64,000 nucleotides of DNA from Protula sp. h YS-2021 (Eukaryota > Annelida > Polychaeta > Sabellida > Serpulidae). The first letter of the stretch is position 1, and each line of letters opens with the position of its first letter. The stretch covers positions 48,225,601-48,289,600 of the forward strand of contig OX457025.1 in NCBI GenBank assembly GCA_949752745.1. Reading direction: 5' to 3'. Below, piece after piece: positions 38,779 through 46,637 of the stretch. The notes beneath the pieces are model-generated. The model searched no databases. It was not told the DNA's origin and worked only from the letters and a program-made list of their open reading frames with translations. Position numbers and translations under genes: made by a program.

Positions 38779-39007
38779 ATGGTACAGTACCAGAATCTCG
38801 CCGCCACATGTTTCTTGGTTTTCACCATAACACAGAGCAATTCTTTCCCCACAAATGGACAGACTTACAAGTTATGTGGGAGGGAATTTCCCCGAGGAGT
38901 CGCAAGGGCTTGCAGTTTCAACTGGAGTCGGTACTATCGTAGCAGCGGCGATAAACGCAGCTGGAATTCGCTTGATAGTGAAGACTTGCGAAAATTACAC
39001 TTGCCAC
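38779..39007 (+). CDS. Relaxin/insulin-like peptide precursor, exon 1 (signal peptide + B chain)
   Basis: This is the first coding exon of a secreted insulin/relaxin-superfamily hormone. Residues 1 to about 20 form a hydrophobic signal peptide (core ATCFLVFTIT). The B chain follows, with Cys33 and Cys45 in CGREFPRGVARAC, exactly the family's C-x11-C spacing. The LCGREF-x-R-x-V core closely resembles the relaxin-3 B chain; the relaxin receptor motif R-x-x-x-R-x-x-I/V is nearly present (REFPRGVA, with Ala in the last place). A dibasic KR at residues 59-60 would release the B chain. After 76 codons plus one base the exon meets a consensus donor (CCAC|GTAAGT), giving a phase-1 intron as in the C-peptide of insulin-family genes. 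ATG 38779 is the start that places the signal peptide at the N terminus. Without splicing, the frame stops at 39036 before any A chain. The family assignment is strong; receptor type and physiology are inference. Confidence 0.9.
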
Positions 39008-39304
39008 GTAAGTCGTCAAGTCATACTCTTAAGTGAGATGTTGTCAGTAAAAACGCCTTCTGTCTACACTGTGTACGTTCATTTCGTTCAATTGCTATTT
39101 CACAGTTACTATCAAGTTCTTTTGGTTGAGTTCTAATAAAATTTTTATATTTTAAAACCATATTCATGTAATTATTTTGGGAAAACTTTCGCGCAGAACT
39201 GCTCACTTTAAAACCACGCCCAGTCTTTTTTTTTTTTTTTTAAAGAGCTGGGAGGTTCCAGTTCTGTACAGTTTTGATTTTTGCGCACGTGTTTTTCGGT
39301 CTCG

Positions 39305-39905
39305 CCCAGCAAACAACCAACGTCTTTTTTGGTTGAAAAAAGCTTGGATTTTGGTCGCCACCACTTCACAACCATATTCGGACCTGGTACCCCAACACCC
39401 GACTTTATTCCGACGTCGAGGTACGTCGGTTTTCTGACGTCATTCCGGCGTTGCAAAAACGACCAAAAAGCGATGAACATTATTATCGCTCACCGGAAAT
39501 GGAAGTCATCTTGAAAAAGAGGAACAAAAAACGTAATTTTTACATGAAAATTTTTAGAATTTTGATGGCGCGTCGGTACTTTTCTTCCTAGATTGTAAAA
39601 ATGTACATGGAAAATGCTTTCGTATGTATTTCACAATAGTAGTTGAATGATTAATTATCTATTAATTATATAACTCTAGTCAGTTTCAGGTCGGAATCCG
39701 ACGTCGGTTCCAATTTCATATACAACCTAAAACCGACTTAATTCCGACGTCGGATTTAGGTCGGAACCCGACGTCATTCTGACGTTGAAAACCCGACGTC
39801 GGTTCCATTTCATATACAACCAAAACAGGCACGTCAGTCCGACGTCGGAAACGTCGGGTTACGGCGTTGACCCGACGTCATTCTGACGTCTTAATGTTTG
39901 CTGGG
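39305..39905 (-). mobile_element. 601-bp MITE with CCCAGCAAAC termini, copy 2
   Basis: It runs from CCCAGCAAACAACCAACGTC to GACGTCTTAATGTTTGCTGGG in inverted orientation relative to 20406-21008. CG dinucleotides flank both sides. It lies 298 bp into the relaxin-like intron. It encodes nothing recognisable. Confidence 0.8.
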
Positions 39906-40058
39906 CGATTGAGTCTCGGGCCGAGATGAGACCACCTCATTTCGTAACTTTGGAAATAACAATAAGACGAAAAAATAAAGCAAAACAATGGAAGTGCCTG
40001 AGAATTCTTGATCAAATCTCTGGTTCAGGAGACGAAAGGATAGATATTATTCATTGTG

Positions 40059-40160
40059 TTATATATATATATATATATATATATATATATATATATATAT
40101 ATATATATATATATATATATATATATATATATATATATATATATATATATATATATATAC
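40059..40160. repeat. (TA)n microsatellite
   Basis: About 100 bases of TA repeats in the relaxin-like intron. Confidence 0.98.
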
Positions 40161-40164
40161 ATAT

Positions 40165-40660
40165 ATTATTTCCAAAATTAATCAAAGGGAACTGAATTTG
40201 TCCTCAAAATTTTGTTAATTGTGACCCGGTTTTCTAATTGTCGCTTGCTTCGATAATGCTTGGACTCGATTTGCTCATGTTTGAGAGTATATAATTGCAA
40301 TTGCAATTACTCTTACTAATTCACCATGATTGACGTGAGGATGTACTGCCATATTATTCAGCTGACGTACATGTGATTGTGTACAATTGCAATTAAAGGA
40401 AGGGGTGAATTAATCTGCAGTCACTCGCCTTTCAATTGCTTGAGATCAGGGCTTTTCACATCCCCACTCTTAAGTTAACAGCTTGAGCAAATACTTCGCA
40501 TTTTCTCGTTAATTCACCCCAGGCTCTATTGAGTCCCCCTCCTTTCCGAAACATTGGCCTCGTTACCAGGGATCGTAGAGTAAAAGGACTAAACTCGGCC
40601 CGGACTCCACTGGACCTGCAACAGTCTTGTTCTTCAGTTATTCTGCAGTGCGTGTGTAGT
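40165..40660. other. Intronic, nothing seen
   Basis: Ordinary intron sequence without a recognisable feature. Confidence 0.5.
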
Positions 40661-40663
40661 AAT

Positions 40664-43900: not shown

Positions 43901-45239
43901 TTTCCTATGTAGAATCACCCCCTTTTTTCGTCAATCTGAAGACGCAATACAATTTTTTGTACCATAACTAAACATGTTTGTTTTATGTTAAATGTGCAAT
44001 CTGCTACTTAAACACACAAAGGAGTTGTCAATTGCCTATAGTCAATTGTAATCGATGAGGTGTTGACAACGATGATCCAACTCCAACACCATCTCATTCC
44101 TAGGCCAATATGGCAGCAGATTTTTGCGGTTGCACTATTTTCAACTTCACTGACAAAACTGTGATACTGAGTGTGCAACTGACGTTAGAAGAAAGCTCTG
44201 GCATTTGGAATAAAGGGTAAAAAGTAGAGTGGTACTAGAAAGTTCTTAGTACCAAAGTCAGGTCCTAAAAACTAAAGAAAAATTGTGTGGAAATATGAGC
44301 TTAGTAACATTAGTGATATGTCTTGTTTGTGGGCAATGTATTTTCTTTCAAATGTTTTAACAGAGTTCACATAAGATTATAATCCACAAACTACTGTAAA
44401 ATATCGTTGACCTATATTCTGCAGCAGCACAATGAGACTGAAAAGTAATCCCTAAAAAAGAATGTCACATTTATAATTTAAGCTCTATTTTTTTATTCAA
44501 AGCTTCCACGGCACTACCACTGAAAAATTATTATCCTCGTTTAACATAAGGCTAAAATTCTCGTTGGATAAAAATTGCGCAATATAAATCCTTCACTGAC
44601 ACCGACAGCGTTCTGCTTTTAATCAAACACACTTTTATTAAAATCGTTTAAACTTTCTTTTAATTTTTCATTTTCAATTTTTCCTTGTCATATATTACTG
44701 TGAAATTAATGTAAAAACACGTGCACCCTTTGGGAAGCGCATGAGAATGACTGAAATATGGAAGCAGTAGATTACTTTTCGCACTTTCTTTACAAGGTTG
44801 CTGCAATCGCGTGCAAGACTCCATAGGCAGCTTTTGTAGAAACTTTAGTGTTAAGCAATAATTGCAAATTTTTTTATCACAGCCACAGAGTGGCCAGCTA
44901 ATGCCACGAAAGAATGTTCTACGCCAACTTTCTACTTTTTGTCATGTACCCACTAATTTGTCTTCTAGATTTGTCTTCTAGATTTGTCTGTCCTATCAGA
45001 TTTGTCCCAGTTGTCGCGTACTTTTAATCAGATAGACTACTCGTTTGAATTTATGGACACACAATAATCAACTTCAATCCAGAAATCTAGTTTAACTGTA
45101 ATCTAAAACCATGCACAAATGTTAATCTAATAAGAAGGTATTCAGACTGATCTATCACAAAATAGTTTGGTGTATGGTTAGTTATGCGCATACACGAACA
45201 AATAGGCATAGCATTTCATAACACAAAATTTCACACCGA

Positions 45240-45430
45240 TTATGCCTGGGCGTAATTTCTCAGTAAGTACACCGTCGGAAAACGACGTCAGTTGGGTAAA
45301 TTCGGTTGGAAAACGAAGTCTAATCGGCGTCGGTATCTCTTGTCGATAGTTAAAAACTGACGTTCCATCGATGTTGTCATTGCTCACCGAAAATGACATT
45401 TTGACAGATTGCTTCGAAAACAGGCGAGCA
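45240..45430. repeat. Relic of the ACGTCGG MITE family
   Basis: CCGTCGGAAAACGACGTCAG, GTTGTCATTGCTCACCGAAA and ATGACATTTTG align with inner parts of the 39305 MITE (ATCGCTCACCGGAAATGGAA). Confidence 0.5.
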
Positions 45431-45764
45431 GAATGATTAAAATGTGGGTATTTAAGTAGTGAAGAAATTTCTTTTGAAAAAAGTTATTAATATAGACTTT
45501 ATAATATCCTCCTGTTACGGATGACACAAGGATATATTAACAATGGGATGACCAAGACACTTTGTAATTGTTAAATTGTAAACGGCGATCAGTCAATGTG
45601 TAGATTTAGATTAGTATTTTCTGACTTGTAATGAACGTCTCTCCGATGTGCCAACTCTTCGAGTTCCATGACCAACTGAACGGCATGCTGATCAGATGTC
45701 GGGTGTGATGTCCATAGGTCGTTTCACAATGTTTACTGGACAGGCACATACCACACCCCCTCTG

Positions 45765-45838
45765 TCTCTCTCTCTCTCTTTCTCTTTCTCTCTCTCTCTT
45801 TCTCTCTCTCTCTCTCTCTCTCTCTCTCTCTCTCTCTC
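45765..45838. repeat. (TC)n microsatellite
   Basis: TC run with TTTC interruptions. Confidence 0.98.
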
Positions 45839-46129
45839 AAAATACGAAAATATGGCGATTGTCAAATAATACAAGATATGAGTAATTGTGAAATTTTAAA
45901 ATGTCCATTTCTGCAGTTATGACTGAATTGTGTTTTCCATTTGTGTTTCCTGTTAAAAAGCAACGGTCCGATTGGAACATACCATTTAGCACCATTGCTT
46001 ACTTACCAGTCAGTAAAGCAACAGTTCAAATCTTGTGGCTTTGATATGTTTTTAATTTAGCAAAATTGCGGATAGACTTTGTATCGAAATTATTGAAAGA
46101 TCGAAAAATATTTCAGTTATTTCTTTTTA

Positions 46130-46235
46130 CGTCTAATGGGTATAATGGTTGGTTTGAAGAGCTTGAATGAGTACATTATAGTAATCGGAAGGTCAAGAGT
46201 TCTATCCCACTCGATGAAATGGCATTGTGATGATA
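46130..46235 (+). repeat. tRNA-derived SINE-like fragment
   Basis: TATAATGGTTGGTTTGAAGA resembles a tRNA D-arm/A box. AAGGTCAAGAGTTCTATCCC + ACTCGATG resembles a B box and T-arm. It is too diverged to fold as a tRNA gene and lies about 120 bp before the relaxin-like exon 2. Confidence 0.45.
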
Positions 46236-46356
46236 GAAGAGAACTCGTCGCAATCCGATTCCGGTAACCAAAGCAATCCGATGGCAGAAATCCTGTAGTG
46301 TAGATTCAACAGACTTATTATCGCTCACTTGCTATTTACTGGTTCTTATTTTTAAG

Positions 46357-46637
46357 GTCAAGTCAGGCAGATTTCACATCGGAAGGCGCAAAAAAGTATT
46401 CCGCGGTGGGCAAGAAACCAAAAGCTCGTTAAGTATCTTCTGCTCTCCTTGTCACATCGGCAATACAGCAGAAAACCACAAGCCCAGTTAGTCTACCTAG
46501 TGTCAGAAAGTCAACCTGGAGTTGAACACAGAAGACGGTTGGTTGCGAGGGGAAAGCGAGGCGTTTCTTTGCGCAATCTCGCCAACGAGTGTTGTTCTAC
46601 TGGGTGCACGATGCAAGCACTTTCTTGGTTATGTTAG
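46357..46637 (+). CDS. Relaxin/insulin-like peptide precursor, exon 2 (C-peptide + A chain)
   Basis: This is the second coding exon of the hormone precursor begun at 38779. The acceptor is a pyrimidine-rich tract ending TTTTTAAG|GT. It restores the frame after the phase-1 donor and gives an open reading frame to TAG at 46635-46637. Residues 77-142 are a basic C-peptide rich in Arg and Lys. GKR at 142-144 is a furin-type site. The A chain (residues 145-169) ends in ECCSTGCTMQALSWLC, exactly CC-x3-C-x8-C, and stops on the last Cys as relaxin-3 and starfish gonad-stimulating peptide A chains do. B and A chains would pair through the canonical three disulfides after C-peptide removal. The exon boundary at 46356 is inferred: nearby AGs at 46365/46366 and 46370 give the wrong phase. 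Total precursor is 169 residues. A possible poly(A) signal AATAAA lies at 46823. Confidence 0.88.

Follow-up and report, generated by a model that had tools for sequence, protein, structure and literature searches.

A probable relaxin/Dilp8-type preprohormone gene and a candidate receptor gene in the genome of a serpulid annelid

The question raised by two small open exons in the genome of the serpulid annelid Protula sp. h YS-2021 is whether, joined across a long intron, they encode a peptide hormone of the insulin superfamily and, if so, to which branch of that superfamily the hormone belongs. The exons lie on the plus strand of a stretch of 64,000 nucleotides, hereafter the window (GenBank assembly GCA_949752745.1, contig OX457025.1, positions 48,225,601 to 48,289,600), and an earlier note on this DNA had read them as a relaxin-like peptide gene. 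The analysis presented here suggests, with a probability of roughly three in four, that this is a real gene encoding a preprohormone of the relaxin/Dilp8-type branch.

Structure of the gene and its profile match

Translation and splicing in silico reproduced the two-exon gene proposed in the earlier note, including the exon coordinates (Table 1), the GT/AG phase-1 join and an in-frame product of 169 residues, and the spacing given as 7.35 kb was measured as an intron of 7,349 bases. The start codon of exon 1 (context AAAACATGG) is the first in-frame ATG and is preceded by an in-frame TAA beginning 15 nt 5′ of it. The product begins MVQYQNLAATCFLVFTITQSNS and reaches its hydropathy peak at residues 7-17 (Kyte-Doolittle mean 2.42 over an 11-residue window), from which a signal peptide is predicted; this call is made by hydropathy alone, which does not fix the cleavage point. 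Ten residues, in the same exon, separate residue 22 from the first B-chain cysteine, and the B-chain core CGREFPRGVARAC is followed by the dibasic site KR. The donor GTAAGT and the acceptor TTTTTAAG join in phase 1, and the frame of exon 2 is shut by a TAA immediately 5′ of the acceptor, so that its open frame starts where the acceptor predicts. In exon 2 the remainder of the C-peptide, which is basic, leads to GKR and then to the A-chain core CCSTGCTMQALSWLC. The precursor is ordered as signal peptide, B chain, C-peptide and A chain, dibasic sites flank the C-peptide, and the six cysteines fit the insulin-superfamily pattern (C-x11-C in the B chain, CC-x3-C-x8-C in the A chain, which ends on Cys); all of these elements were found as claimed. 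Both exons are without an interrupting stop, frameshift or lost Cys, and the splice signals are intact. A phase-1 intron within the C-peptide is the rule for the superfamily as given in PMC8286064 and PMC11863921, and the agreement with this rule expected by the earlier note holds.

The profile search that had been named in advance as a refuting test gave a match over both chains. Pfam Insulin (PF00049; curated cut-off 23) aligned with the joined protein at 25.1 bits (E 3.5e-5; residues 31-169, profile positions 2-81), the alignment starting ahead of the B chain and extending through the final Cys of the A chain. Taken singly the exons are inconspicuous, again as had been said, with exon 2 alone scoring 18.5 bits, below the cut-off. 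When the residues of exon 1 were shuffled before joining, all 10 joins scored between 16.0 and 18.2 bits. Comparison of the real join with these controls and with exon 2 alone indicates that the B-chain exon contributes real signal, a gain of about 7-9 bits over shuffled exons, and that joining the exons brings out a signal present in neither of them singly.

The chance of such a pairing was assessed with 200 dinucleotide-preserving shuffles of the window in 2-kb blocks. The window itself contains one A-chain pattern and three B-chain patterns (CG-x10-C), of which two (38875 and 42036) precede the A pattern by no more than 15 kb. Of the 200 shuffles, 21 contained an A pattern, one had an A pattern preceded by a dibasic site, and three placed a B pattern at most 15 kb ahead of an A pattern on the same strand. 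B patterns by themselves turned up often (mean 2.4 per shuffle), and another one, at 42036, also precedes this A pattern, so the assignment of the B exon depends on its frame, its splice site and the Pfam gain, not on the pattern. Chance pairing of the A and B patterns was judged unlikely after these shuffles and the shuffled-exon decoys.

Genome-wide searches covered the 863-Mb assembly of 218 contigs. A protein search with both exons (five candidates scored) returned three matches at E≤10, the two exons themselves and a locus with E 0.145; the latter was considered as a paralogue and rejected, being a frame with neither chain pattern. This search of the genome turned up neither exon a second time nor any paralogue of them, although an exon-wise search may miss divergent paralogues.

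Table 1. Coordinates of the relaxin-like gene in the window (position 1 is its first letter) and of the candidate receptor gene elsewhere on the same contig
Feature	Position	Strand	Remarks
Coding exon 1	38779..39007	+	229 nt; encodes signal peptide, B chain, KR and the first part of the C-peptide; phase-1 end at a GTAAGT donor
Probable signal peptide	38779..38844	+	about residues 1-22; predicted from hydropathy
B-chain core CGREFPRGVARAC (C-x11-C)	38875..38913	+	by pattern and position
KR dibasic site, C-terminal of the B chain	38953..38958	+	position counted from the translation
Phase-1 intron, GT...AG	39008..46356	+	7,349 bases; microsatellites and repeats inside
Coding exon 2	46357..46637	+	281 nt; remainder of C-peptide, GKR, A chain, TAG stop
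A-chain core CCSTGCTMQALSWLC (CC-x3-C-x8-C)	46590..46634	+	C-terminal Cys, followed directly by TAG
AATAAA polyadenylation-like hexamer	46823..46828	+	ATTAAA also at 46812
RXFP/LGR3-type receptor gene (L017, L037, L038, L040, L041)	G000 C2:17719000-17770899	minus	TM2 phase-1 intron, LRRNT, LRR-like exons, one LDLa-like exon

Branch of the superfamily and a candidate receptor

With the cysteines kept in register, the chains were compared by BLOSUM62 with seven human peptides, each comparison being controlled by 5,000 shuffles of the residues. Over both chains the z scores were 6.4 for relaxin-2 (RLN2), 5.0 for INSL3, 4.9 for both relaxin-3 (RLN3) and INSL5, 3.4 for IGF1, 2.7 for IGF2 and 2.4 for insulin (INS); no shuffle reached the observed score for the first four peptides, and 2, 33 and 68 of the 5,000 did so for IGF1, IGF2 and INS, respectively. 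Judged by these scores, the chains are closer to the human relaxin family than to insulin and IGF. The earlier description of the B-chain core as relaxin-3-like is borne out in part: relaxin-3 gave the top B-chain score (37), but by a margin of one point over relaxin-2 (36), and with both chains taken together relaxin-2 was highest. Among protein structures in the PDB, five of the six matches at E≤10 were relaxin-family A chains, the best being human relaxin A with an E of 0.17, which is not significant alone.

Gene structure points to the same branch. As described in PMC11863921, relaxin/Dilp8-type genes have a single phase-1 intron and carry the signal peptide and B chain in the first exon, while in Dilp7-type genes a further, phase-2 intron is present and a polypeptide segment separates the signal peptide from the B chain. 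In the serpulid gene the signal peptide and B chain share one exon and there is one phase-1 intron, a structure of the relaxin/Dilp8 type and not of the Dilp7 type; no additional phase-2 intron divides the signal peptide from the B chain, provided that 38779 is the true start.

A gene for an RXFP/LGR3-type receptor, which a relaxin/Dilp8-type peptide would be expected to accompany, was also found in the genome. A seven-transmembrane (7TM) probe returned 56 rows, the best of which lies near 17.73 Mb on the minus strand of C2, the 108.9-Mb contig that also bears the window. Two TAG codons in this match fall upstream of the proposed splice acceptor and would be intronic. The main 7TM exon scored 146.6 bits against human RXFP1, with the FSH receptor next at 64.6, and the exon covering the hinge and first transmembrane helix (TM1) scored 67.3 bits against RXFP1, with the next receptor at 23.7 and the stretch FQYCxYAxxVRxCxPxxDGISSxxNLL in common. 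At the 3′ end of the hinge/TM1 exon the sequence is TGT G|GTAATT, and the following exon starts CTTTCAG|TA TGT GAC, giving a phase-1 intron within TM2 of a kind that PMC11863921 describes in RXFP/LGR3-type and not in LGR4-type genes. TM3 to TM6 are uninterrupted by introns; PMC11863921 names a TM5 intron for human and starfish only. An LRRNT exon upstream on the same strand scored 26.6 bits, above the Pfam cut-off of 25.8, and an LDLa-like exon lies about 34 kb upstream, also on the same strand, with the LDL receptor and relaxin receptor 2 as its best PDB matches. Chain scores, gene structure and the presence of this receptor gene together support the relaxin-like identity first proposed for the locus.

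The second-best locus in the receptor search is ambiguous (TSH receptor 64.4 bits, RXFP1 59.0). As a separate observation, 24 of the 56 rows, which are exon matches rather than genes, are LGR-like 7TM exons at G000 C8:52.4-66.5 Mb, which might reflect local amplification of a different LGR type.

Weight of the evidence and rival explanations

Several points weigh against a real gene of the relaxin/Dilp8-type branch. A collection of 5.8 billion proteins held no homologous protein (none of 24 candidates reached E≤10, and a second search gave no candidate), and exon 1 alone had no Pfam Insulin match. The vertebrate relaxin subfamily is defined in PMC551602 by the B-chain motif RxxxRxxI/V; here the translation reads R-E-F-P-R-G-V-A, in which both Arg are present and the third motif position is Ala in place of Ile/Val, as had been noticed earlier, so that the gene is not classed as a relaxin in the strict vertebrate sense of that paper, which in 2005 expected an invertebrate relaxin, should one exist, to be without RxxxRxxI/V. 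The comparison of relaxin with insulin is confined to the seven human peptides and to chains of 22 residues, and IGF1 also exceeds its own shuffles. For the receptor gene, the LDLa-like exon scored 21.1 bits, below its cut-off of 24.1, two of three LRR-like exons have LRR_8 matches below the cut-off and the third has no match, and the TM7 exon (L040:8175-8456), which was called by eye, has no Pfam match. Order and strand suggest that the receptor exons may belong to one transcript, and the link between ligand and receptor is one of co-occurrence in a single genome, among the 56 rows of the same search.

Three other explanations bear on these points. An insulin/IGF-type peptide that has diverged, or an insulin-like one specific to the lineage, acting on a receptor tyrosine kinase and resembling relaxin only through convergence of short chains, is considered unlikely. 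The shortness of the chains, the IGF1 z score and the sequence divergence or convergence that, according to PMC11863921, might account for certain long-branched peptides in the relaxin clade would suit such a peptide, and Pfam Insulin membership by itself is neutral; the chain scores, however, prefer the relaxin family, the A chain terminates on Cys, and the insulin-like exon of this genome is a different one. That exon (L001:1501-1617; C2:77642509-77642625, minus strand) is of the insulin/IGF type, with an A chain GIVCECCHHQCSLMEMKQYC of the GIVCECC form and a long C-terminal tail after it, and no other locus was listed with a Pfam Insulin match in that search of the genome (six candidates scored). 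A peptide of the Dilp7 type with an LGR4-type receptor as its target is less probable again: PMC11863921 places the Dilp7-type and relaxin/Dilp8-type precursors as closest relatives with the phase-1 intron in common, but the phase-2 intron and intervening polypeptide stretch expected of the former contrast with the single exon and the 10 residues between residue 22 and the first B-chain Cys seen here.

Least credence is given to a decayed copy or chance juxtaposition, in which open exons would persist without expression. The repeat-rich surroundings and long repeat-filled intron fit such an origin, as does the further B-like pattern at 42036 upstream of the same A exon, and the gene model was read from genome sequence alone. 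Set against this are the intact reading frames, cysteines and splice signals, the single occurrence of each exon in the own-genome search, by which the locus is no duplicate of a live gene, the rarity of the pattern pair in shuffles and the bits added by the B exon. A real relaxin/Dilp8-type preprohormone gene is the preferred reading.

Genomic setting, comparison and proposed role

The description of the surroundings as repeat-rich was confirmed, with a GIY-YIG domain frame, an integrase-like frame and satellites found in the window. The intron contains a 24-bp array (40651-41119) and TA and CA arrays, and, at about 39390-39685, a segment that matches 20594-20889 in reverse at 91%. Satellite arrays are located at 34468-34932 (unit 52 bases) and 37147-37865 (54 bases), in addition to the intronic array (24 bases). 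At 26442-28124 on the minus strand are two adjoining frames, one with a GIY-YIG domain above the Pfam cut-off, which we take to be Penelope-like, and at 61384-62235, also on the minus strand, is a retroelement frame, presumably BEL/Pao-like, with DUF5641 above the cut-off and an integrase match below it. Apart from this locus, the mitochondrial contig (C218; 21,318 bases) carries long COX1 and CYTB frames of 609 and 587 residues stop-to-stop, CYTB being named by eye; for COX1, inspection by eye favoured a code in which AGR is Ser and TGA is Trp. Of 8000 candidates scored, the closest organism-named matches to COX1 were Ficopomatus enigmaticus (66%) and Hydroides elegans (63%), with the remaining named animals at or below 61% among the 120 matches listed, which places the animal with the serpulid annelids or a near relative. 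Those long frames of the mitochondrial contig to which a name could be given by eye are all on one strand; the mitogenome of the serpulid Serpula uschakovi is reported as 20,628 bp with every gene on one strand (PMC13202650), and another serpulid, Galeolaria caespitosa, is reported to have a genome of 803.5 Mb on 11 chromosomes (PMC12400804).

Relaxin/Dilp8-type peptides are already published for an annelid (Owenia), echinoderms and insects, and the report for Owenia includes the receptor type (PMC11863921). No serpulid case was present among the literature matches listed for relaxin with serpulid genera or for relaxin-like peptide with annelid. The Owenia fusiformis peptide OfusRLP, also from an annelid and compared here by its description in PMC11863921 only, has a B-chain Ala together with an A-chain Gly-Ile motif, whereas the serpulid A-chain exon is without Gly-Ile after GKR. 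Vertebrate relaxin-2 and relaxin-3, which act with RXFP1, share with the serpulid peptide KLCGRE at the start of the B-chain core and both Arg of RxxxRxxI/V, but have Ile/Val where the serpulid peptide has Ala; the serpulid A chain matches relaxin-2 over LAN-CC-xxGCT-xxxL-xxC. A known RXFP/LGR3-receptor system whose function comes from spawning and receptor assays likewise has a phase-1 C-peptide intron as the only coding intron reported, while the serpulid gene is known by its sequence. Drosophila Dilp8 and Lgr3 are of the same receptor type and gene-structure class as the serpulid genes (PMC11863921), a likeness by class alone.

By comparison with these families, the signal peptide would route the preprohormone to the secretory pathway, where three disulphides would form and prohormone convertases would cleave at KR and GKR. 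The two-chain peptide released may then activate the RXFP/LGR3 receptor, with Gs and cyclic AMP as the probable signalling route. Starfish RGP and fly Dilp8 suggest a reproductive role (PMC11863921), and by analogy the serpulid peptide might act in gamete maturation or spawning; in reproductive female syllid annelids, transcripts of relaxin and its receptor are reported as differentially expressed (PMC6350857). A more specific proposal is that the peptide is the ligand of an intact relaxin-RXFP/LGR3 axis in serpulids, a family that includes broadcast spawners, with Ala at the position where vertebrate relaxins have an Ile/Val contact residue. Annelid receptors would on this view recognize a B-chain cassette of another kind, and ligand and receptor together would set the time at which gametes are shed; this proposal is put forward tentatively and is rather doubtful.

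The gene illustrates how hormone genes of this kind escape notice, as two small exons 7 kb apart among repeats, each weak singly and with no match in the protein collection. With the ligand gene and a candidate receptor in one serpulid genome, a little-studied hormone system would become testable in tubeworms.

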